This document shows positions 2,396 to 19,134 of a DNA stretch of 21,683 bases, one piece after another. The DNA lies in assembly GCA_902362275.1 (NCBI GenBank), contig CABIWB010000001.1, positions 320,968 to 342,650 on the forward strand, given 5' to 3'. Each line of letters starts with the position of its first letter. Positions within the stretch are counted from its first letter, which is position 1. The notes beneath the pieces were generated by a model, which saw only the letters and a list, made by a program, of their open reading frames with translations, was not told the DNA's origin and did no database searches. The DNA comes from Coriobacteriaceae bacterium. GTDB taxonomy: Bacteria; Actinomycetota; Coriobacteriia; Coriobacteriales; Coriobacteriaceae. A program made the translations under genes and the position numbers.

Positions 2396-4531
2396 ATGGG
2401 GCGCAATAACAAGTATAAGCGTGGAGCTCGCAGTAAGCGCGGGCCGGTGCGCAGCGAACGCCGTCCGAGCCTGACCGGGCGCGTTCAGCTCCATGAGCAT
2501 AGCGCCTACGTTGTAACCGAAAACGGCGACTACAAGGTCATGGGTCGCGGCAAGCGTGAGATCATGGACGGCGATACCGTTGCCGTGAGCATTAAGAACA
2601 GCCCGCATGGCGAGCGTCGCGCCGTGATCGAGGGCGTGGTTGAGCGCGCAGCTATAAGCGTGGTGGGCACGTACCAGACCGCCGGTCCGCTCGGTGTGAT
2701 TGAGCCGCTTGATTCGCGTCTGAAGGCCGACTTCTTCATTCTGCCCGAGGATACCTCGGCGGATCGTCTGGGCGTCCACCCGGGTGATGCTGTTGTCGCG
2801 CGCATTTTGACCTACCCGACGCGCCTGGAATCGGGCACTGTGACGATCGAACGCCGCATTGGCGGAGATGACGCGCCCGATTTGGGCGTTCAATATGTGA
2901 TGGCGCGTTACGGCTATACCGATAGCTATCCCGAAGCCGCGCTAGACGAGGCCGAGGGGCTTTCGCTCGATGTGTCCGCGGCGCTTAAGGACCCGCTCCG
3001 CCGCGATCTGCGCGACCGCTTTGTCATCACGATCGACCCGGTCGACGCGCGCGACTTTGACGATGCCATTTCGCTGGAGCGCACGCCTGAGGGTGGCTAC
3101 AAGCTGGGTGTGCATATCGCCGACGTTTCACACTATGTGGCTTGGGACGGGCATATCGATCTTGAGGCTCGCCATCGTACGACATCGGTGTATCTGGCCG
3201 ATCGCGTGCTTCCCATGCTGCCCGAACGCCTGTCCTGTGACCTGTGCTCGCTTCGCCCTGACGAGGACCGTCTTGCGTTTACCGTCGATATCGAGCTCGA
3301 TGCACAGGGTCGCGTGCGGCATTACGATCCGTACCCCAGTGTGATTCGCTCGCGTGTGCGTATGGACTATGACGGCGCCGAGGCGCTGCTGGTGCGTGCC
3401 GGCGCGGTTGAGTATTCGGTGCTGGAGGGTGCAGCCGAGGATGTTGCGGCTGCCGAGACCTCGCGCGAGGAAGCGCTTGAGCGCGGCCTTGCGTGCGAGG
3501 AGGCCGCCCGCGGCTACAACATCGACCTCGGTGATTTCCTTGTCGCCGCTAACGAACTCGCCGAACTTCGCCGTCGTATTCGTCGCGCCCGCGGCTCAGT
3601 CGATTTTGACACGGCCGAGATTCGCGCTCTATTGGATGAGGACGGAGTGCCCGTGCAGATTGTGGCGCGTGAGCGTTCGTGTGCCACGTCGCTTATCGAG
3701 GAAGCCATGCTGCTCGCCAACGAGTGCGTTGCAGAGTGGCTGGCGGACCGTGATATCGAGGCCTGCTATCGCGTGCATGAGGATCCGAGCCCCGATAGCC
3801 TGCACGGTGCCGCCGTTGCGCTGGCGCAGCTAGGCATCATCGACGATCGCCGTGCTGCCGGTATTGCCCTGGGGAGTCCCGATGAGTTGCAGGCTGCAGT
3901 TGATGCTGCCGCCGGTACGGCAAACGCACCGCTCGTCAACACGCTGCTTCTGCGCAGCATGCAGCGTGCGCTGTACAAGCCGCGCAACGAGGGCCACTTT
4001 GCGCTCGCCGCGCCGTGCTACTGTCACTTTACGAGTCCCATCCGTCGCTACCCCGATCTGGTGGTGCACCGCGTGCTCAAACTGCAGTTGGCCTATGAGC
4101 AGCTCGGCGGCAAGGACGCCTTGGTCCGTACGCCGCGGCTGATCGGCAAGGGGCGCGAGTCGCTGCCGCGCATTCTGCCGCAGATCTGCCGCGCATGCAG
4201 CGATGCCGAGCGCGCGGCAGATGCCGCCAGCCATGCGACGCAAAAGATCAAGATTGCCCAGTACTATGAGGACCGTCTGGGCGAGCGCTATGCCGGAACC
4301 GTCTCGTGGGTTAGCAGCATGGGCCTCTTTGTGCGCTTGGACCTGACGCAGGTCGAAGGCCTGGTTTCGATTAAGAGCCTGGGCAACGAGTGGTTCGAGT
4401 TTGACGAGGACGCGCTTACGCTGACGGGCGCCGACACGGACATCCGTTACGAGCTGGGGCAGCGCGTGATCATCGAGGTCTCGCGCGTCAATACCACGCG
4501 TGGGCACTTGGACTTTAAGCTTATCCATTAG
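2396..4531 (+). CDS. rnr: Ribonuclease R (RNB-family 3'-5' exoribonuclease)
   Basis: Processive exoribonuclease that degrades structured RNA and, with SmpB-tmRNA, clears faulty mRNAs. It starts at ATG 2396, four nt after TAGGAGG (2385-2391). Domains in order: a basic N-terminus (1-25), cold-shock/OB folds (about 26-185), the RNB catalytic domain starting near 195, and an S1 domain from about 632 to 711. The signature IDPVDARDFDD is at 213-223 and supplies the metal-binding aspartates. The HTSPIRRYPDLVVHR-like block of the family is present as FTSPIRRYPDLVVHR. At 711 residues it is a short family member: it lacks the N-terminal helix-turn-helix region and the lysine-rich C-terminal tail of E. 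coli RNase R. It appears to be a single-gene unit, with a terminator on each side. Confidence 0.95.
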   Translation: MGRNNKYKRGARSKRGPVRSERRPSLTGRVQLHEHSAYVVTENGDYKVMGRGKREIMDGDTVAVSIKNSPHGERRAVIEGVVERAAISVVGTYQTAGPLGVIEPLDSRLKADFFILPEDTSADRLGVHPGDAVVARILTYPTRLESGTVTIERRIGGDDAPDLGVQYVMARYGYTDSYPEAALDEAEGLSLDVSAALKDPLRRDLRDRFVITIDPVDARDFDDAISLERTPEGGYKLGVHIADVSHYVAWDGHIDLEARHRTTSVYLADRVLPMLPERLSCDLCSLRPDEDRLAFTVDIELDAQGRVRHYDPYPSVIRSRVRMDYDGAEALLVRAGAVEYSVLEGAAEDVAAAETSREEALERGLACEEAARGYNIDLGDFLVAANELAELRRRIRRARGSVDFDTAEIRALLDEDGVPVQIVARERSCATSLIEEAMLLANECVAEWLADRDIEACYRVHEDPSPDSLHGAAVALAQLGIIDDRRAAGIALGSPDELQAAVDAAAGTANAPLVNTLLLRSMQRALYKPRNEGHFALAAPCYCHFTSPIRRYPDLVVHRVLKLQLAYEQLGGKDALVRTPRLIGKGRESLPRILPQICRACSDAERAADAASHATQKIKIAQYYEDRLGERYAGTVSWVSSMGLFVRLDLTQVEGLVSIKSLGNEWFEFDEDALTLTGADTDIRYELGQRVIIEVSRVNTTRGHLDFKLIH

Positions 4532-4708: not shown

Positions 4709-5314
4709 ATGACGATGGTGTACGGCTATGCGCGGGTGAGTTCGCGCGATCAGAATCTTAATCGGCAGCTGGATGCGCTGGGCGCCTATGGCGTGGGCTC
4801 GGCGAATATTTATGCCGACCATGCGAGCGGCAAGAACTTCGATCGACCGCGTTATCGCGAGCTGCTGCACGTTCTGGGAGACGGGGACGTGCTGGTGGTG
4901 CTTTCTATCGACCGACTTGGCCGTAATTACTCCGAGATTCTTGAGGAATGGCGACGCATTACCAAGGAGCTCGGGGTTGCCATTGTGGTGTTGGACATGC
5001 CATTGCTTGACACGCGCGTCAGGGCCAGCGGCGCGCCGGATGTGACCAACACCCTGATTGCCGATATTGTGCTGCAACTGCTGAGCTACGTGGCGCAGGT
5101 GGAGCGCGAGAATATCCATCGGCGCCAGGCGGAGGGAATTGCGGCGGCGCGGGCGCGAGGGGTCCGTTTCGGTCGACCTCGCAAGCCGTGCCCTCCTCAG
5201 TTTGAGCTGGTGCGCGATAGCTATGAGGCAGGCGATATTACCCGCAGCCAAGCAGCAAAGTGCCTGGGCGTGTGCGTGGGGACGTTCGATCGCTGGATGC
5301 GCGAGGCGGGGTAG
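4709..5314 (+). CDS. Small serine recombinase (resolvase/invertase family)
   Basis: DNA site-specific recombinase that cuts and rejoins through a serine-DNA link. The ATG at 4709 gives 201 residues; ATG 4715 is equally plausible. The N-terminal catalytic domain has YARVSSRDQN with the nucleophile Ser11, and IDRLGRNYSEI carries the paired active-site arginines. A C-terminal helix-turn-helix (GDITRSQAAKCLGVCVGTFDRWM, split here as GDITRSQAAKCLG and VGTFDRW) lies at about 172-198. Length and layout match gamma-delta resolvase/Pin-type enzymes, not large integrases. No transposase, invertible segment or phage gene accompanies it, so its target is unclear. It stands alone between rnr and a VanZ-like gene, behind a conspicuous dyad. 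Confidence 0.88.
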   Translation: MTMVYGYARVSSRDQNLNRQLDALGAYGVGSANIYADHASGKNFDRPRYRELLHVLGDGDVLVVLSIDRLGRNYSEILEEWRRITKELGVAIVVLDMPLLDTRVRASGAPDVTNTLIADIVLQLLSYVAQVERENIHRRQAEGIAAARARGVRFGRPRKPCPPQFELVRDSYEAGDITRSQAAKCLGVCVGTFDRWMREAG

Positions 5315-9888: not shown

Positions 9889-9927
9889 CTCGTAGACACA
9901 CGGCGAAAGCCGAACATAGCTCTGTCC

Positions 9928-9964
9928 AAGGGCCCCGGCTGGATATTCCGGCCGGGACCCTTTT
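9928..9964 (+). terminator. Terminator after rubredoxin
   Basis: Fifteen-base arms at 9928-9942 (AAGGGCCCCGGCTGG) and 9948-9962 pair with one mismatch and one G-U around the loop ATATT, followed by a T-run to 9964. It is a strong hairpin. Its T-run runs into the decayed repeat copy at 9961. Confidence 0.85.
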
Positions 9965-10010
9965 GATTTATCTGACGGTTTAAAACGGCCTTACGTGTTA
10001 CAGATTGAGA
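9961..10010. repeat. Degenerate copy of the TGTTACAGAT hairpin repeat
   Basis: The right arm TGTTACAGATTGAGA (9996-10010) is identical to those at 11621 and 19120. The left arm is decayed (TTTTGATTTATCTGA, 9961-9975) and the spacer is 20 nt instead of 25. It lies between the convergent rubredoxin and Nramp genes. Confidence 0.6.
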
Positions 10011-10040
10011 CGTTATATCTGGACAGTCACGCCATCCCAA

Positions 10041-11297
10041 TTACATCCCCGTTAGCAGCACGATGTCGAGAATCGTCACGATGGCACCGATCCCTACGAG
10101 CAACGCGTTGAGCGGGCGCGAGTTGGCATATTTACCCATGACGCGGCGTGAACTGGTGAGCCGTATGAGCACAAAGACCGTAATCGGCAGCTGAAGCGAC
10201 AGCAGTGCCTGACTCCAGATGAGACCTTCAAAAGGATTTGGGACGACCAGACACGCCGCCACTGCGCCGGCGAAACAGGCCGCCACCCCGATCGAGGAAT
10301 GTCGGTCGTGGATGTCGTATTCCTCGTCGAACATACCCGCGGTGATGGTGCCTGCCGCCATGCCTGCCGTCACACTACTCGAGAGGCCCGCAAACAGCAG
10401 CGCCACCGCAAAGATTGTCGAGCTTGCTGGGCCCAGAATGGGGGAGAGCGTGTCCGCTGCGACGGCGAGGTCGTCTACGACCATGCCGTGCGCAAAGAAG
10501 GTCGTTGCGGCCAGGATGACCATGGCCGAGTTGATTGCCCAGCCCACGCCCATCGAAAAGAGCGTGTCGAAGAGCTCATAGCGCAGACGCTCTTCGATAA
10601 CTTGCTCGCCTTGGCCTTCGAAGTGCATGGATTGGATGACCTCGGAGTGCAGAAAGAGGTTGTGGGGCATAACGACCGCACCCAGGACACTCACGATAAT
10701 CGCGGCAGAGCCAGTGGGCATACTGGGCGTGATCCAGCTTGCGGCGGCTTGCGGCCAGTCGACCTTGGCTAGTGCAAGCTCGGCCAAAAACGAGAGTCCT
10801 ACCACGCCGACGAAGGCGATGATCCAGCGTTCGGCTCGCTTGTAGGAGTTCGTCATGAGCATCGCCATCGATGCTGCCGCCACGATGACGCAGCCCGCGC
10901 GCACGGGCAGCCCAAAGAGCATTTGAAGGGCAATCGCACCACCCAGGACTTCGGCCATGGCGGTGGCGATGGTCGCGAGATAGGCGCTGGCGAGCACCGT
11001 GCGTCCCACGATGCGGGGGAGAAAGCGTGTCGTGGCCTCGGCAAGACAGGCGCCCGTGGCGATGCCCAAGTGCGCCGCATTGTGCTGCAAGACGATCAGC
11101 ATAATCGTGGACAGCGTGACGATCCACAGCAGCGCGTAGCCAAACCGCGAGCCCGCGGCCATATTGGAGGCCCAGTTGCCCGGGTCGATAAAGCCGACGG
11201 TCACGAGCAGCCCGGGGCCGATATGCCGCGCAATGTCTAGGCCTCCGTGACCACCGGTGCGCCGGGAGCCAAAATGATGTTTGAGATGGTTGAGCAT
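10041..11297 (-). CDS. mntH: Nramp-family divalent metal transporter (MntH-like)
   Basis: Proton-coupled importer of Mn2+ and/or Fe2+ in the cytoplasmic membrane. The start chosen at 11297 follows AGGAG by 6 nt and gives 418 residues; the upstream in-frame start at 11333 has no such site. The unwound first helix carries the metal ligands in GFIDPGNWASNMAAG (Asp, Pro-Gly, Asn), and the sixth helix carries MPHN in VLGAVVMPHNLFLHS. About eleven hydrophobic helices are visible. Both signature motifs are intact, so transport should be functional. Mn2+ versus Fe2+ choice cannot be read from the sequence. It is divergent from gltB, with a long repeat-filled gap between them. Confidence 0.93.
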   Translation of the reverse strand: MLNHLKHHFGSRRTGGHGGLDIARHIGPGLLVTVGFIDPGNWASNMAAGSRFGYALLWIVTLSTIMLIVLQHNAAHLGIATGACLAEATTRFLPRIVGRTVLASAYLATIATAMAEVLGGAIALQMLFGLPVRAGCVIVAAASMAMLMTNSYKRAERWIIAFVGVVGLSFLAELALAKVDWPQAAASWITPSMPTGSAAIIVSVLGAVVMPHNLFLHSEVIQSMHFEGQGEQVIEERLRYELFDTLFSMGVGWAINSAMVILAATTFFAHGMVVDDLAVAADTLSPILGPASSTIFAVALLFAGLSSSVTAGMAAGTITAGMFDEEYDIHDRHSSIGVAACFAGAVAACLVVPNPFEGLIWSQALLSLQLPITVFVLIRLTSSRRVMGKYANSRPLNALLVGIGAIVTILDIVLLTGM

Positions 11298-11333
11298 GGT
11301 GAGCTCCTGCGTGCCGTTTGTTTGACGCCGCAA

Positions 11334-11373
11334 AGGATACCCGTTTTAGGCTCAAAAGTTAACCAAGACTAAC
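11334..11373 (-). promoter_or_regulatory. Possible promoter and metal-regulator operator of the Nramp gene
   Basis: Read on the minus strand, TTAACT (11357-11362), a 17-nt spacer and TATCCT (11334-11339) make a moderate promoter about 36 nt before the start codon. GTTA and TAAC half-sites eight bases apart (11358-11373) overlap the -35 box, where a DtxR/MntR-type repressor would act. The dyad is short, so the operator is a guess. Confidence 0.35.
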
Positions 11374-11418
11374 AAAATTGTTGTATTTGAATAGGATGGT
11401 GAAAGAGGGCTGCCGAAA

Positions 11419-11477
11419 TGTCTTGATCTGTAACAACTAGGGATGGAAATTGGGCCTAGGTGTTACAGATCAAGACA
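11419..11477. repeat. TGTTACAGAT hairpin repeat, array copy 1
   Basis: The 17-bp arms TGTCTTGATCTGTAACA (11419-11435) and TGTTACAGATCAAGACA (11461-11477) are perfect inverse copies around a 25-nt spacer. This is the best-preserved copy of the family in the window. Confidence 0.85.
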
Positions 11478-11500
11478 GGAAGAAATGGTCCTATGGAAAA

Positions 11501-11555
11501 TCTCGATTTGTAACAGTTGGCTGCAAAAATCGGCCCTTCGTGTTACAGATCGAGA
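11501..11555. repeat. TGTTACAGAT hairpin repeat, array copy 2
   Basis: TCTCGATTTGTAACA (11501-11515) and TGTTACAGATCGAGA (11541-11555) differ from perfect inversion at one position. The spacer is again 25 nt and carries AAAAATCGGCCC, close to the same position in copies 1 and 3. Confidence 0.85.
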
Positions 11556-11580
11556 CAAACCAAAACTGTCCTGCAGAAAA

Positions 11581-11635
11581 TCTCAACCCGTAACATCTAA
11601 GCGCCAAAATCGGCTCCTCCTGTTACAGATTGAGA
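11581..11635. repeat. TGTTACAGAT hairpin repeat, array copy 3
   Basis: TCTCAACCCGTAACA (11581-11595) and TGTTACAGATTGAGA (11621-11635) differ from perfect inversion at two positions, with a 25-nt spacer containing CAAAATCGGCTC. Copies 1 to 3 start 82 and 80 nt apart. Confidence 0.85.
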
Positions 11636-11719
11636 TGTTTGAAGCGGTGAGCTTACAGGCCGAACTTGGGGCCCTTGTTGTCGCCCTTGAGGTCGGCGGT
11701 GTCCACTCGTAGGGCGTGC

Positions 11720-11778
11720 GTTACGCGATTGTTTCGAAACGGATGGGAAACACAACAGGCCGGCGATGCTCCTAGTAT
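11720..11778 (+). promoter_or_regulatory. Candidate activator-dependent gltBD promoter
   Basis: TAGTAT (11773-11778) is a possible -10 box with no recognisable -35 box at the right distance. Just upstream lie GTTAC (11720), GTTTC (11731), GAAAC (11736) and GAAAC (11747): two pairs with 11-bp steps, and a perfect GTTTCGAAAC palindrome at 11731-11740. Direct repeats with 6-nt gaps are the form of actinobacterial GlnR boxes (GTnAC and GAAAC half-sites), and a nitrogen regulator would make sense here. No regulator gene is in the window. Confidence 0.3.
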
Positions 11779-11819
11779 GCCTATTCAACTGACTGTCTAA
11801 CACCAAGGGGAGGATCGCG

Positions 11820-14800
11820 ATGCAGGCAGATTCCGCTCAGCAGCAGGGACTTTATCGCCCCGAATTCGACCACGATGCATGTGGCATCGGCGCGCTTGCC
11901 GATATCAACGGCGAGCGCCATCACCAGATCCTGGACGACGCGCTGTCCATTCTGGTCAACTTGGAGCACCGCGGCGGCACGGGACTCGAGAAGAACACCG
12001 GCGACGGCGCCGGCATCCTGTTCCAGGTTCCGCATCACTTTTTCCGTAAAGAGGCTCAAAAGTGCGGCCAGATTCTGCCGGCAGAGGGCGACTATGGCGT
12101 GGCCATGCTGTTCTTCCCGCAGGACGACAAGGGCGTAGAGGATGCCCGTCGCGTGTTTGAGGAGGGCTGCGCCGAGGCCGGCGTGCCGCTGCTCTTTTGG
12201 CGCGAGGTGCCGGTCGACCCGCACGACCTGGGTGAGACGGCCCGCGCCTGCATGCCCACTATCCTGCAGGCCTTTCTGGGCCGTCCGGACGACACGCCGG
12301 CGGGCGACGCCTTCGAGCGCCGTCTGTATGTGTGCCGCCGCACCATCGAAAAGAAGGCCGACGCCGAGTTCGCCCTGCGCGACAAGATCTTCTACGTGTG
12401 CTCCATGAGCTCGCGCACCATCGTGTACAAGGGCATGCTGGTCGCCACGCAGATGCGTCGCTTCTTCATCGATCTCAACGACGCCGCCGTCAAGACGGCC
12501 GTGGCGCTCGTCCATTCGCGCTACTCCACCAACACCACGCCCAGCTGGGAGCGTGCGCACCCCAACCGTTTTATCATTCACAACGGCGAGATTAACACCC
12601 TCAAGGGCAACGTCAACTGGATTCGTGCCCGCGAGCCCAACCTGTACAGCCCCGTGCTGCAGCATGATCTTGAGCGCGTGATGCCGATCATCAACCGCGA
12701 GGGCTCCGACTCTGCAATTCTGGACAATGTGCTCGAGTTTTTGGTCATGAACGGTCGCCCGCTCACGCGTGCCGCATCCATGCTGTTGCCCGAACCGTGG
12801 GACCACAACGACAGTCTGAGCGAGGAGCGCCGCGCCTACGACGCCTACCAGTCCATGCTCATGGAGCCCTGGGACGGCCCGGCGGCCATCGCCTTTACCG
12901 ACGGTCGCACGCTGGGCGCCGCCCTCGACCGCAACGGCTTGCGCCCCGCCCGCTACTACGTGACGCGCGATGGCCGCTTTATGCTGGCAAGCGAAGTGGG
13001 CACCATCGAGGTACGCCCCGAGAACATCCTGACGAGCGGCTGCCTGGGACCGGGCCAGATGCTCGAGGTCGATTTTGCCCGCGGCCGCGTGATCTACAAC
13101 GACGAGCTGCGCGCCCGCTATGCCAAGGAGAAGCCCTACCGCGACTGGATTGCCGAGGAGACGCTGGCCGTCGACGCGCTTGATGAGCCCGTTGCGGCAA
13201 CGCCCGCCGAGGACGCCGAGGTGCCCGCCGCCGTGCGCATGGCTAAGCTCGGGTATCACTGGGATGATGTTGACGAGGTCGTGCGCCCCATGGCCCAGCA
13301 GGGCAAGGCCCCGCTCGCCTCGATGGGTATCGATGCGCCGCTGGCCTGCCTGTCCAAGAAGACGCGTTCGTTCTTTGACTACTTCTATCAGCTGTTCGCT
13401 CAGGTCACGAATCCTCCGATCGATGCCCTTCGCGAGCATATGGTAACTTCGACCACGCTCTACCTGGGCAACCACGGCAACCTGCTCGAGGATTCCCGCA
13501 CGGCCTGCCAGCTGGTTCGCTTGGAGCGCCCGTTGCTCAACGAGGAGGAGTTCGACCGCATCTGCGCCATCGAGCGCGTGGGCTTTAAGACCCGTCGTTT
13601 TCGTGCCGTCTACCGCCGCGATGCCGGCGAGGGCGCGCTGCAGGCTGCGCTCAAACAGCTTGCCGAGGACGTCGAGGCTGCGGTCCGCGACGGCGTGAAC
13701 ATTGTGGTGCTGAGCGATCGCGCCGGAGCGGACGAGGTCCCTGTGCCGTCGCTGCTTGCCGTGGGCTGCGTGCACAACCACCTGATCCGCGCCGGTGTGC
13801 GTACCTTTGCCGATATCGTGGTGGAGTGCGGCGACGCCGTGTCTCCGCACGACTTTGCGGCACTGGTGGGCTACTCCGCGAGCGGCATCTATCCGTACAA
13901 CGCACATGCGTGCATCCGCGATCTGGCGGCACGCGGCGATCTGGACGTGACAGCCGAGCAGGGCATCGCCAACTACAACAAGGCTGCGACCGCCGGCATC
14001 GTCTCCATCATGTCCAAGATGGGCATCTCCACGGTGCAGAGCTACCATTCGGCGCAGATCTTCGAGGCCGTGGGCTTTACGCCGGAGTTCGTCAACGCAT
14101 ACTTCGCCGGCACGGTGAGCCGTGTGGGCGGTATGGGTGTCGAGGACGTTGAGCGCGAGCAAAACGAGCGCTACGACGCCGCGCTCGCCATCCTTAAGAG
14201 CCCGGCTCCCGATCAGCTGCCCACACTGGGTCTGACCAAGTGGCGCCCACTCGGTGGCGAGGATCACCTGATCGACCCTCAGAGCGTCTACTTGCTGCAG
14301 ACCGCCTGCCGTGAGGACAGCTACGACACCTTTAAGGAGTACAGCGCCCGCCTGCACCGCACCGGCCGTGCCGTGCGCCTGCGCGACTTGCTCGACTTTA
14401 ATGCCAGCGGCTGCACGCCGGTTTCGCTCGACGAGGTCGAGCCCGCGCTCAACATCGTCCGCCGCTTTAACACCGGCGCCATGTCGTACGGCTCCATCAG
14501 CAAAGAGGCACACGAGTGCATGGCCATCGCTATGAATCGCCTGCACGGCCGTTCCAACTCCGGCGAGGGCGGTGAGGATCCGCGTCGCGAGACCCCGCTG
14601 GCCAACGGTGACTCCAAGAACTCCGCCATCAAGCAGGTAGCAAGCGCGCGCTTTGGCGTGACGAGCCGCTACCTGTGCAGCGCCTTCGAGATCCAGATCA
14701 AGATGGCCCAGGGCGCCAAGCCCGGCGAGGGCGGTCACCTGCCCGGCAAGAAGGTCTACCCCTGGATTGCCGAGGTCCGTCAGTCCACGCCCGGCATCGG

Positions 14801-16517
14801 CCTGATCTCGCCTCCGCCGCACCACGACATCTACTCCATCGAGGACCTGGCAGAGCTGATCTTTGACCTTAAGAACGCCAACCCCGGCGCGCGCGTGTCG
14901 GTCAAGCTGGTCAGCGAGGCCGGCGTCGGCACCATCGCCACTGGTGTTGCCAAGGGCGCTGCCGACAAGATTTTGATCAGCGGCCACAACGGCGGCTCGG
15001 GTGCCGCTGCTCGCGATTCCATTTGGCACGCCGGTCTGCCGCTGGAGCTCGGTCTTGCCGAGGCCCAGCAGACGCTGCTGCAAAACGGTCTGCGCTCGCG
15101 CGTGGTGCTCGAGGCCGACGGCAAGCTCATGGACGGCACCGATGTTGCCGTCGCCTGCCTGCTGGGTGCCGAGGAGTTTGGCTTTGCGACCATGCCGCTC
15201 ATCTCGATGGGCTGCCTCATGCAGCGCGACTGCCAGCAGGATACCTGCCCCGCCGGCATCGCTACGCAAAACTGCCGCCTGCGTCGCGGCTTCCGCGGCA
15301 AGCCCGAGCACGTTGAGCACTTTATGCTCTTTGTTGCCGAGCAACTGCGCGAGGTCATGGCGAGCCTGGGCTTTCGCACCGTCGACGAGATGGTCGGCCA
15401 TCCCGAGTGCTTGCGCCAGATTGAGGTCCCGGGCAACCGCAAGGCTAACCTGCTGGATCTGTCACCCGTGCTGGCGAGCGCGACCTGTAAGTTTGGTGCC
15501 CACATCCCGGGTGCCGACGGCCGTCACTTCCTGCCCCAGATGGCTGCGGACGGCGAGCTCGACAAGACGCTCGACTCCACGTTGTTTGTGCCCTATACGG
15601 CCGATGCCCGTGCGCACCTGCGTCCGATTCGCTTCCGCGCCGATATCGCCAACGTCAACCGCTGCGTGGGCACCATCTTGGGCAACGCGGTGACCAAGGC
15701 GCATCCCGAGGGCCTGCCCGCCGGCTCCATCACCATCGATTGCGATGGTTCGGCCGGTCAGAGCTTTGGCGCCTTCCTGCCGCGCGGCATTACGCTCAAC
15801 GTGTGCGGCGACGCCAACGACTACTTTGGCAAGGGCCTTTCGGGCGGCGAGGTGTCGGTGCGCCCCAACCCGCATGCGACCTACAAGTTCGATGAGAACA
15901 TCATCGTGGGCAACGTTGCGTTCTTTGGCGCCACGAGCGGCCGTGGCTTCATTAACGGCCTGGCAGGCCAGCGCTTTGGCGTACGCAACTCCGGTGCCAC
16001 CGTGGTGGTCGAGGGCTGCGGCAACCATGGCTGCGAGTACATGACGGGTGGTCTGGCGCTCATCCTGGGCGAGGTCGGGCAGAACTTCGCCGCCGGCATG
16101 ACGGGTGGCGTGGCCTATGTCTTTGACCAGTACGGCACGCTCGATGCCCGTGTGAACCACGAGAGCGTTGAGCTTAAAGCCCCGACGGCCGGCGAGCTGG
16201 CACAGATTCGCGAGCTCATCCAGGAGCACGTGGACGCGACGCAGAGCCCGCGCGGCATTAAGCTGCTCTACAGCTTTGAGACGATGAACAAGCACTTTGT
16301 GAAGGTCATTCCGACCGAGTACGAGCGCGTGCTGGCGATTGTCGCCGCCGCCGAGGCCGTCGGTAAGACGCATGCGCAGGCCGAGGAACTGGCGTTTGAC
16401 ATTGTGACCGGTCGCGCGAGTGCCGCGGATGTTGCTCGCTTCGATGTCGCGGGCGGTGCTGCGGGTGCTGCGTCCGTGGCTGCCAGCTCTGTTGCTTCGA
16501 CCAAGAAGGAGGCGTAA
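11820..16517 (+). CDS. gltB: Glutamate synthase large subunit
   Basis: With GltD it makes two glutamates from glutamine and 2-oxoglutarate, the GS-GOGAT route of ammonium assimilation. The 1565-residue length is typical. ATG 11820 follows AAGGGGAGGA. A 20-residue propeptide precedes Cys21 (DACGIGAL), the nucleophile of the class II glutaminase domain (about 21-430). A central domain follows, then the FMN synthase domain (about 830-1240). C1132-x5-C1138-x4-C1143 binds the 3Fe-4S cluster. The C-terminal GxGxG beta-helix domain spans about 1270-1510. The last 35 residues are an Ala/Ser-rich tail that may be disordered. gltD starts 5 nt after the stop, so the two form one operon. Confidence 0.97.
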   Translation: MQADSAQQQGLYRPEFDHDACGIGALADINGERHHQILDDALSILVNLEHRGGTGLEKNTGDGAGILFQVPHHFFRKEAQKCGQILPAEGDYGVAMLFFPQDDKGVEDARRVFEEGCAEAGVPLLFWREVPVDPHDLGETARACMPTILQAFLGRPDDTPAGDAFERRLYVCRRTIEKKADAEFALRDKIFYVCSMSSRTIVYKGMLVATQMRRFFIDLNDAAVKTAVALVHSRYSTNTTPSWERAHPNRFIIHNGEINTLKGNVNWIRAREPNLYSPVLQHDLERVMPIINREGSDSAILDNVLEFLVMNGRPLTRAASMLLPEPWDHNDSLSEERRAYDAYQSMLMEPWDGPAAIAFTDGRTLGAALDRNGLRPARYYVTRDGRFMLASEVGTIEVRPENILTSGCLGPGQMLEVDFARGRVIYNDELRARYAKEKPYRDWIAEETLAVDALDEPVAATPAEDAEVPAAVRMAKLGYHWDDVDEVVRPMAQQGKAPLASMGIDAPLACLSKKTRSFFDYFYQLFAQVTNPPIDALREHMVTSTTLYLGNHGNLLEDSRTACQLVRLERPLLNEEEFDRICAIERVGFKTRRFRAVYRRDAGEGALQAALKQLAEDVEAAVRDGVNIVVLSDRAGADEVPVPSLLAVGCVHNHLIRAGVRTFADIVVECGDAVSPHDFAALVGYSASGIYPYNAHACIRDLAARGDLDVTAEQGIANYNKAATAGIVSIMSKMGISTVQSYHSAQIFEAVGFTPEFVNAYFAGTVSRVGGMGVEDVEREQNERYDAALAILKSPAPDQLPTLGLTKWRPLGGEDHLIDPQSVYLLQTACREDSYDTFKEYSARLHRTGRAVRLRDLLDFNASGCTPVSLDEVEPALNIVRRFNTGAMSYGSISKEAHECMAIAMNRLHGRSNSGEGGEDPRRETPLANGDSKNSAIKQVASARFGVTSRYLCSAFEIQIKMAQGAKPGEGGHLPGKKVYPWIAEVRQSTPGIGLISPPPHHDIYSIEDLAELIFDLKNANPGARVSVKLVSEAGVGTIATGVAKGAADKILISGHNGGSGAAARDSIWHAGLPLELGLAEAQQTLLQNGLRSRVVLEADGKLMDGTDVAVACLLGAEEFGFATMPLISMGCLMQRDCQQDTCPAGIATQNCRLRRGFRGKPEHVEHFMLFVAEQLREVMASLGFRTVDEMVGHPECLRQIEVPGNRKANLLDLSPVLASATCKFGAHIPGADGRHFLPQMAADGELDKTLDSTLFVPYTADARAHLRPIRFRADIANVNRCVGTILGNAVTKAHPEGLPAGSITIDCDGSAGQSFGAFLPRGITLNVCGDANDYFGKGLSGGEVSVRPNPHATYKFDENIIVGNVAFFGATSGRGFINGLAGQRFGVRNSGATVVVEGCGNHGCEYMTGGLALILGEVGQNFAAGMTGGVAYVFDQYGTLDARVNHESVELKAPTAGELAQIRELIQEHVDATQSPRGIKLLYSFETMNKHFVKVIPTEYERVLAIVAAAEAVGKTHAQAEELAFDIVTGRASAADVARFDVAGGAAGAASVAASSVASTKKEA

Positions 16518-16522
16518 GTGCC

Positions 16523-18004
<1,482 letters not shown>

Positions 18005-18017
18005 AGTAGTCATTTAA

Positions 18018-18066
18018 GAACGTCTCCAATGACTAGTCATTTTTTGTCTAGTCGTTGGGGACACTC
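18018..18066. repeat. Inverted repeat after gltD, may also terminate gltBD
   Basis: GTCTCCAATGACTAG (18022-18036) and CTAGTCGTTGGGGAC (18048-18062) are inverse copies at 13 of 15 positions; both differences allow G-U pairs. The similarity extends weakly to 18018 and 18066. Inside, AATGACTAGTCATT (18028-18041) is a perfect palindrome that runs into six T, which could act as a terminator. Confidence 0.6.
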
Positions 18067-18310
18067 TTTGCGAGCGATTTGCTCGTTTGTCGACGTACGG
18101 GTGTTCATTTGTCGACTTCTTGGGCTGTGGTCACCTGTTGTTTCTGTGGTGGCTGTGGGTATCTGGCTCAAAAGGGCGTGTTGGCCGTCTATGTTTACCT
18201 GCGGTTTTGTTGCGGTGCGCATTTTCGGTCAAGCTTTTTGTCAAGTGTTTGGTCAGCATCTGGTTTGCAGCCGGAGGCCTATTTTGCCCGCGCTGGTCGT
18301 GGCCGACCAC
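18067..18310. other. T-rich gene-free stretch
   Basis: No convincing gene: the 110-codon frame across it (18029-18361) has poor codon bias and runs through the repeat and the next gene's start. The DNA is clearly T-rich on the plus strand. TTTGTCGAC occurs twice exactly 22 bp apart (18086 and 18108), which would suit a dimeric DNA-binding protein. Its length suggests a long 5' leader or regulatory region for the gene at 18358. Confidence 0.5.
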
Positions 18311-18352
18311 CCTCCTCGTAAGCTCAAATTGAGGTCTATCAGTTTGAGGAGG
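18311..18352 (+). promoter_or_regulatory. Possible ribosome-binding-site-masking hairpin
   Basis: CCTCCTC (18311-18317) is perfectly complementary to GAGGAGG (18346-18352), the ribosome-binding site of the next gene. A second pairing, CTCAAA (18323-18328) with TTTGAG (18343-18348), shares bases with it, so the two cannot form fully together. This is the form of a translational switch. No ligand or known riboswitch class is recognised. Confidence 0.35.
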
Positions 18353-18357
18353 ATGCC

Positions 18358-19053
18358 ATGATTGACCACGCTTTAGACCGAGCGCAGCTAGCCGAAGCCG
18401 TCGGCAACGATATTGCCGACATGGCCCATTTTTGGATGCTGCGGAAGTTCCAGTTTTTGGAGCCGGCGCGCGAACAGTTCGAGATCATTGTCGACCCGTG
18501 GCTCAGCTATTGCACCGAGCCTTCGCAAAACGAAATCATGGCCTACAACATGGCATTTACCGATTGGCTGCTCTTCGAGCGCCCCTATCGCCATGGCAAG
18601 ACGCTGCTCGAGCTGTATGTTGACGAGCCGCCGGCATCGCTTTTGCCTGCCTCGCTCAAGCGGCTCGAGCAGGTACGCGACACGCAGTATTTCTCGCGCT
18701 TTGGCATTTTGGACAAGGATCCTGCGACTGGTATGGTCGCGCTGAAGGACACGCGCACCGACCGTCGCTTTGATGTCTACGACCCGCATATCGTGCAAAA
18801 GGAGCATTGGAGCGACGGAGCGATTGCGGTGCGCCTCGCCTGCGTCGACGATGTCTGGCTGACGGCGGGACAACTCTATCTGTATGACATCGCACGCCTG
18901 AGTGACACGGCGGTCGATGGGCCGGGTGCGGTGCATCCGGAGGACCTGCAGGACGGCTTTGACACCTCGTGCGTCAGCTTCTTTTTGCGCCTGGTCCGCG
19001 ACATCATGGGCGCCCAGGGGCGGTACGTAAAGTCGCTCAACATCTACGAATAG
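18358..19053 (+). CDS. Conserved-looking hypothetical protein
   Basis: A 231-residue acidic soluble protein with no signal peptide or membrane segment. ATG 18358 follows GAGGAGG by 5 nt, and codon bias is like that of its neighbours, so the gene is real. The middle part (TDWLLFERPYRHGKTLLELY, about 63-82, then a YFSRFGILDKDPATGMVALKD-like segment, quoted here in part) faintly recalls a group of uncharacterised bacterial proteins with a F-E/D-x-P/R-x-x-x-G-x-T-x-L-E pattern, some of which carry SEC-C zinc motifs. No cysteine cluster of that kind is present here. Function is unknown. A hairpin repeat separates it from the amidohydrolase, so a shared operon is not certain. Confidence 0.75.
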   Translation: MIDHALDRAQLAEAVGNDIADMAHFWMLRKFQFLEPAREQFEIIVDPWLSYCTEPSQNEIMAYNMAFTDWLLFERPYRHGKTLLELYVDEPPASLLPASLKRLEQVRDTQYFSRFGILDKDPATGMVALKDTRTDRRFDVYDPHIVQKEHWSDGAIAVRLACVDDVWLTAGQLYLYDIARLSDTAVDGPGAVHPEDLQDGFDTSCVSFFLRLVRDIMGAQGRYVKSLNIYE

Positions 19054-19079
19054 GAATGGGAGTAGGAGCTGCTGATAAG

Positions 19080-19134
19080 TCTCGATGCGTAACGTTTAAC
19101 GGCCTGGGGGCGGCCTAACTGTTACAGATTGAGA
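19080..19134. repeat. TGTTACAGAT hairpin repeat, single copy
   Basis: TCTCGATGCGTAACG (19080-19094) and TGTTACAGATTGAGA (19120-19134) enclose a spacer of exactly 25 nt, as in the array at 11419. It lies 26 nt after the hypothetical gene. Confidence 0.8.

Follow-up and report, generated by a model that had tools for sequence, protein, structure and literature searches.

A dispersed repeat in a 21,683-nt stretch of DNA from a Coriobacteriaceae bacterium (contig CABIWB010000001.1; 'the window') belongs to a real, genus-level family in Collinsella. The unit of the family, which we call the module, consists of two 15-bp words in inverted orientation (TGTTACAGATYGAGA; the 'arms', which we read as recognition words). 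Their TGTTACA ends point towards each other and are separated by exactly 25 bp; an A-tract marks the dyad, and the shoulders are GC-rich. With somewhat more confidence than doubt, we take these modules to form chromosomal docking arrays that resemble the bacterial interspersed mosaic elements (BIMEs) of Escherichia coli, that is, double-stranded DNA sites, not RNA elements, for a putative DNA-binding protein.

When the window was scanned with the arm (up to three mismatches), nine matches were found, five on the plus strand and four on the minus strand, compared with 0.53 expected, and none of 100 shuffles reached nine. The scan confirms the four intact inverted modules, each with a spacer of exactly 25 nt, that were described in an initial annotation of this DNA (Table 1). 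The three modules in the array start exactly 80 bp from one to the next, so the gaps between modules are also 25 nt, and the direction of the arm flips every 40 bp through the whole array; a spacer similar to that of module 1 is found at the orthologous site upstream of gltB in relatives. The initial annotation also placed a half-decayed fifth copy at 9961. This copy retains its right arm and a spacer-like 25-mer, but the stated start is slightly off because the position of the left arm (9956–9970) is occupied, as judged by eye, by the apparent tail of a terminator hairpin.

The dispersed family with fixed spacing that had been proposed is found in related genomes. The nearest genome compared (G001) contains 92 matches to the arm (up to two mismatches) and none to a reversed control pattern. 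Among 43 Collinsella genomes (up to one mismatch), 22 contain 49–127 arms, seven contain 1–3 and 14 contain none, with a maximum of one match to the control pattern. A shorter module pattern, applied to 197 genomes from the order, matches 32–59 times only in the array-bearing Collinsella and 0–4 times elsewhere (0–2 for controls). Finally, a scan of named genomes found at least 120 stretches with the pattern; among the matches listed, all are titled Collinsella except one (uncultured Coriobacteriaceae). The carriers of arrays are members of the Collinsella aerofaciens group of gut bacteria, with ∼40 modules per genome (43 in G003, the only genome mapped throughout). The initial annotation had tied the family to two properties of copies elsewhere; one of these, a constant spacer, holds, and the other, compensatory changes in the arms, is absent (vide infra).

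The arrays have a regular architecture. Because the fetched loci overlap, the counts of distances include some arrays repeatedly. Neighboring minus and plus arms are 40 bp apart in 449 of 453 cases, not counting another 18 pairs of overlapping matches at a distance of 8 bp; from plus to minus, that is, between modules, the distance is 40 bp (173 cases), 41 bp (111), 39 bp (8) or 38 bp (1). Two, four, six or eight arms are present in 146 of 169 unique arrays (orthologues unmerged and some arrays cut by the ends of loci), and 145 of these strictly alternate from minus to plus; the remainder are 14 single arms and nine arrays with 3, 5, 7, 9, 10 or 16 arms. Because the arms are mostly even in number and run from minus to plus, the module, rather than the single arm, looks like the unit. 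The length of the spacer is constant while its sequence drifts; the consensus of the inner spacer (within a module) is symmetric, that is, NNTAG, five variable positions that are mostly G/C, an A- or T-tract at the dyad, five variable positions and CTANN, and the module is AT-rich at the dyad and ∼10, 21–22 and 30–31 bp away from it. The A-rich core had been thought to give the element a direction; however, the A-tract is on one given strand in 187 of 374 modules, and its orientation is unrelated to transcription (30 A, 28 T and 8 neither, same-direction gene pairs only).

The arms change more slowly than the DNA that surrounds them. In an alignment of the gltB site from the window and 20 relatives, the pairwise difference is 0.025 for the arms, 0.095 and 0.089 for the flanking intergenic stretches and 0.082 for third positions of gltB; the values for the inner and outer spacers (0.141 and 0.194) include exchange between modules. 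The arms at this site therefore change ∼3.6 times more slowly than the flanking intergenic DNA, so the arm sequence itself seems to be selected, as would be the case for a protein site. When modules are clustered by their spacers (a procedure that works against this result; clusters with fewer than three members left out), 53 of 59 inner and 30 of 31 outer clusters show smaller differences in the arms than in the spacer. That the arms seem to be selected as double-stranded sequence is the best-supported step of our reading.

The initial annotation considered the changes in the arms to be compensatory, so that an RNA or cruciform form would be kept; across 114 module clusters, however, the arms vary independently. 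Arm position 11 is C or T about equally, and agreement between the two arms of a module at this position does not exceed expectation (39/24/26/25, Fisher p 0.26); the differences at the other arm positions also fit independence. A comparison between modules shows position 11 to be anti-correlated (p 0.007). The fraction of standard pairs in the arms is 0.945 versus 0.943 when the right arms are redealt (24% of shuffles reach the observed value), and 0.951 versus 0.948 for the other strand (7% of shuffles). Mirror positions in the spacer pair less than in shuffles (z −4.3 for positions 1–2, −1.5 for 3–5 and −4.3 for 6–10), that is, they avoid pairing; at position 6 a pyrimidine is present in both halves in none of the 114 modules. 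In a fold test that allows any register, the true inner spacers fold more weakly than half-swapped inner spacers (z +4.9 and +5.1), and the outer spacers show no difference in the same test. Given the independence of the arms and the weaker folding of the true inner spacers, we rejected a structured RNA or a cruciform as the form that is kept; the above-chance pairing of some off-mirror spacer positions (see below) tells against this rejection. We read the module as a double-stranded site whose palindrome is kept interrupted at its center; a possible reason is the instability of long perfect palindromes.

The positions of the arrays on the chromosome suggest the level at which a bound protein might act. 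According to a simple gene call on 166 array rows (single arms included), 11 are inside an open reading frame, 93 are between two genes and 62, too near the edge of a locus or a long gap, were set aside. Convergent gaps account for 36 of 82 arrays and for 39 of 334 array-free gaps (gaps up to 1 kb, array-free gaps of at least 60 bp, arrays under 50 bp set aside); the median distance between an array and a gene end is 93 bp, and that between an array and a gene start is 185 bp. In G003, the arrays occur at ∼19 places, and by manual count eight of 19 arrays are convergent, one of them a single arm; the order of the arrays relative to dnaA looks largely collinear between G002 and G003. A regulon was considered but is not supported, the named flanking genes having no function in common (elongation factor Tu, glutamine-fructose-6-phosphate transaminase, 1-deoxyxylulose-5-phosphate synthase, ClpB, phospho-beta-galactosidase, copper ATPase, GltB and others).

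We suggest that one module is most likely bound by a dimer (or a dimer of dimers) of a sequence-specific host protein that perhaps bends or wraps the DNA at the A-tract; neighboring modules at 80–81 bp would let the putative protein line up along one to eight modules. Given intergenic, convergent-biased arrays at ∼19 places in G003, we infer a chromosome-level role of the type proposed for the BIMEs of E. coli (these are bound by gyrase, integration host factor and DNA polymerase I), that is, a dock that would structure the nucleoid or insulate supercoils or transcription, rather than the control of a set of genes. A more specific version, which we offer tentatively and consider possible rather than probable, is that C. 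aerofaciens and its relatives have a chromosome-architecture system of their own in which the nucleoid would be structured or insulated at the ends of genes by a dimeric protein that docks on ∼20 arrays of inverted 15-bp sites (spacing of 25 bp, pitch of 40 bp).

Several points weigh against the docking arrays that we propose. The protein, the bending and the chromosome-level role are what we infer. The p-value for the comparison of gaps (4e-10) is too small because orthologous loci are counted repeatedly. The 19 arrays in G003 have no significant bias with respect to the origin (distance to dnaA, Kolmogorov–Smirnov p 0.07; p 0.16 for 12 merged loci), and periods of 7.5 and 14.5 bp are present in the AT profile of the module besides one of 10 bp, so there is no clear helical signal. 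Some off-mirror positions in the spacer pair above chance (6–18 and 7–18, z 4.2; 8–20, z 3.5; 7–17, z 3.1; these are the best of all position pairs at least four apart), so some modules may have a weak offset stem. The site upstream of glmS is filled in only four of 21 array-bearing genomes (G003, G004, G019 and G035), so a single array can be dispensable. Finally, the family is restricted to a clade of close relatives (the gltB region is 94–97% identical to the window), so conservation is tested over a short distance.

Table 1. Repeat modules and associated genes in the window.
Feature	Positions	Strand	Details
Small serine recombinase gene	4709–5314	+	PF00239 Resolvase, E 2.9e-30; syntenic place in NZ_OY725717.1 is 'recombinase family protein'
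Truncated module	9971–10010	+	Spacer-like 25-mer 9971–9995; intact right arm 9996–10010; left arm lost; partly a by-eye reading
Nramp-family metal transporter gene	10041–11333	−	Flanks the array, divergent from gltB; named via the syntenic gene in NZ_OY725717.1
Module 1	11421–11475	none	Arms 11421–11435 (−) and 11461–11475 (+); inner spacer 11436–11460
Gap between modules 1 and 2	11476–11500	none	25 nt
Module 2	11501–11555	none	Arms 11501–11515 (−) and 11541–11555 (+); inner spacer 11516–11540
Gap between modules 2 and 3	11556–11580	none	25 nt
Module 3	11581–11635	none	Arms 11581–11595 (−) and 11621–11635 (+); inner spacer 11596–11620
gltB, glutamate synthase large subunit	11820–16517	+	Flanks the array; named via the syntenic gene in NZ_OY725717.1
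Module 4 (single)	19080–19134	none	Arms 19080–19094 (−, three mismatches) and 19120–19134 (+)

The persistence of the arrays bears on a different explanation, that is, that the modules are old selfish or relic repeats with no present function for the host. The family would have undergone a single spread, in the ancestor of the C. aerofaciens group, and its copies would exchange sequence, so that the arms only look conserved. We regard this as rather unlikely. In its favor, presence of the family is limited to one clade and is all-or-none, and modules are lost by recombination between modules: L153 and L162 appear to combine one half of module 1 with one half of module 3. These hybrids break near the dyad of the module, share GAAATTGG at the joint and can be explained by ordinary recombination. 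Also in its favor, the glmS site is empty in 17 of the 21 genomes (eight of these loci were displayed with both flanks aligned, three, L267–L269, with a different left flank, and six were not displayed). On the other side, the arms are conserved while the 25-bp spacers between them diverge, it seems unlikely to us that conversion would be confined to 15-bp tracts flanking a spacer that is itself unconverted, and the length of the spacer is fixed although its sequence drifts. All 21 array-bearing genomes in the sample have modules at both window sites, with 1–3 modules at the gltB site and 1–5 at the other (the region of module 4); the nine array-free loci fetched for the gltB site contain nothing but one arm with four mismatches.

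The same explanation can draw on a second dispersed palindrome that has the same clade range: it has a core of AAACCACCACAAAGG and two half-arms that start ∼24 bp apart (L039, L059, L067 and others), with 28–65 half-arms in the 21 array-bearing genomes and 0–4 in 21 others. It has no match in the window; 38 of 144 arrays (with orthologues counted) have a copy no more than 50 bp away. At the glmS site (L250, L251, L256 and L261), direct copies of this second repeat stand on both sides of the array. The empty allele has a single copy, and recombination between the two may therefore have removed the array or brought it. A further hairpin-like repeat, similar to AAACCTGCCAAAATAAACCTGTCCC...GGTAGGTTT, shares CCTGTCCC with the second repeat (upstream of glmS in L250–L270, and in L248). 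In G003, an insertion-sequence-like element of ∼1.36 kb with inverted ends and an apparent short target duplication is located inside the inner spacer of one module (L222, ∼3000–4350).

A few copies occur outside the array-bearing genomes. Single modules in three otherwise array-free genomes (G016, G037 and G038; L280, L281 and L282) sit in DNA that is 85–96% identical to the C. aerofaciens group; one arm has two mismatches in the G016 copy and one mismatch in the G038 copy. We considered these as independent families and read them instead as transferred DNA, with the G037 copy possibly on a misbinned contig. Two viral contigs matched. One has a single arm (L284); in the other (L285, 1–1118), ∼1.1 kb that includes a two-module array matches Collinsella chromosomal loci, and the array stretch matches loci in G003 and G001 near the gene for hydroxymethylpyrimidine kinase. 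A phage collection searched with the whole window array gave no match, and the only 'plasmid' match is a 0.9-Mb C. aerofaciens record. This record (NZ_OY725717.1, titled 'plasmid 6') carries ftsE/ftsX, gltB and smpB, so it looks like a piece of the chromosome.

The window also encodes a small serine recombinase, adjoining a gene for a ribonuclease R-like protein and less than 5 kb from array sequence, and the arms might be recombination or accessory sites for this enzyme; we consider this quite unlikely. An orthologue with 85–99% identity is present in 20 of the 21 array-bearing genomes (the miss, G033, is 72% complete, and the copy in G012 is in two pieces), and in the 21 other genomes a homologue with 59–68% identity is present in six, a weak partial match in two and nothing in 13. 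However, any gene that is fixed in the clade would show the same pattern, so the co-inheritance is a lead only, and the recombinase is a weak candidate for the cognate protein. The L153 and L162 hybrids, with their breaks near the dyad, would fit such an enzyme, but serine-recombinase sites are ∼28 bp with 12-bp arms, compared with 55 bp and arms 25 bp apart in the module, and the order of the arrays in G002 and G003 looks largely collinear. The re-use of half-sites also counts against the recombinase, and recombination at the dyad was rejected as the source of the diversity of the spacers, because this re-use has no clear excess over chance (four pairs versus 2.2 expected in G003; across cluster representatives, five versus 3.7 at 11 of 12 letters and 49 versus 39.4, standard deviation 7.3, at 10 of 12).

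The initial annotation pointed to REP doublets forming hairpins (REPINs; REP, repetitive extragenic palindromic) and proposed a search for Y1 transposase genes of the REP-associated type (RAYTs) flanked by the same arms. The inverted pairs, the intergenic positions and the dispersal do resemble REPINs, and 36 of the 42 Collinsella genomes searched have Y1_Tnp genes; these genes occur in array-bearing and array-free genomes alike, and none of 20 fetched Y1 loci (of 83 hits in total; 10 of the 20 from array-bearing genomes) has an arm within ∼1.5 kb on either side when three mismatches are allowed. This absence speaks against a RAYT. On the opposite side, one Y1 gene outside the fetched loci, an IS200/IS605 transposase in G001 (contig C6, 422883–423341, NZ_OY725717.1) between genes for Nramp and rubredoxin-like proteins, is ∼170 bp from an arm (422700–422714); whether arms flank any of the other 62 unfetched hits was not systematically checked. 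Since the arm is not itself a hairpin, shows no covariation and occurs at the same two sites in every array-bearing genome, we rejected mobilization of hairpins by a RAYT/Y1 transposase, which we judge to be decidedly unlikely.

A transcribed structured RNA, a processing hairpin or a bidirectional terminator is very improbable: the inverted arms could pair, the arrays favor convergent 3′ ends and the offset spacer positions leave some room for a stem, but the arms lack compensatory change, the inner spacers fold worse than half-swapped ones with mirror pairing below that in shuffles, the A/T orientation is independent of transcription, the consensus of arm and flank has no T-run after the arm (an intrinsic terminator would have a GC-rich hairpin with a T-run behind it; no terminator scan was run), and the modules have no Rfam match at gathering score. 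In the Rfam scan of the window, only two tRNAs reached that score, and a permissive scan of 9900–11800 matched only a microRNA family (21 bits compared with a cut-off of 80). What stands of the suggestion of a REPIN-like element or structured RNA is dispersal and fixed spacing; the hairpin is unsupported, and the REPIN/RAYT link is disfavored.

If the arms are docks for a protein, as we propose, a common human gut bacterium has a sequence-specific system of chromosomal sites with ∼40 modules per genome. The arrays also offer a clean test of how extragenic repeats persist, because the recognition word is nearly fixed, the DNA between the words drifts and the number of modules changes.

Short, highly conserved double-stranded sites at which proteins dock, scattered or arrayed on a chromosome or plasmid, are exemplified by matS, parS and the sopC arrays; we know of no site of this type with the sequence TGTTACAGATYGAGA, the inverted-pair module or the 40-bp alternation, and the Collinsella arrays differ from them in having no significant origin bias. 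With their short conserved repeats and, between these, spacers that vary in sequence but not in length, the arrays recall clustered regularly interspaced short palindromic repeats (CRISPR); however, the Collinsella repeats alternate in direction instead of being direct, and their spacers share the symmetric NNTAG..A-tract..CTANN consensus. Our literature search, with most subscription journals and all supplementary tables outside its reach, did not turn up a description of the element; in the accessible part of one study, 250 palindromic candidates for structured RNAs are reported from human microbiomes (PMC8040213).

According to the accessible part of the source, most dimers are 20–100 bp apart and the REPs have GTAG or CGTC tags (PMC3733652). 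Like REPINs, the Collinsella modules are inverted pairs, intergenic and present in tens of copies per genome; unlike them, the arm has no palindromic REP core and neither of the tags given in that part of the source, its structure is not maintained by compensatory change, no arm was found at the 20 fetched Y1 loci, and the sites of the arrays are common to several species. In BIMEs, REPs are regularly spaced in alternating orientation and are bound by several proteins, as far as the accessible part of the source describes them (PMC2817692). The Collinsella arrays share the regular spacing, the alternating orientation and the organization in short extragenic arrays; they differ in that their unit is a 15-bp non-palindromic word instead of a REP hairpin, the spacing within the module is fixed to the base and no strand preference was found. 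Because the modules were tested for a hairpin unit and do not show one, and because the loci examined give no link to a transposase, the element is by definition not a BIME, a REP or a REPIN; of these systems, it is the BIME that it works most like.

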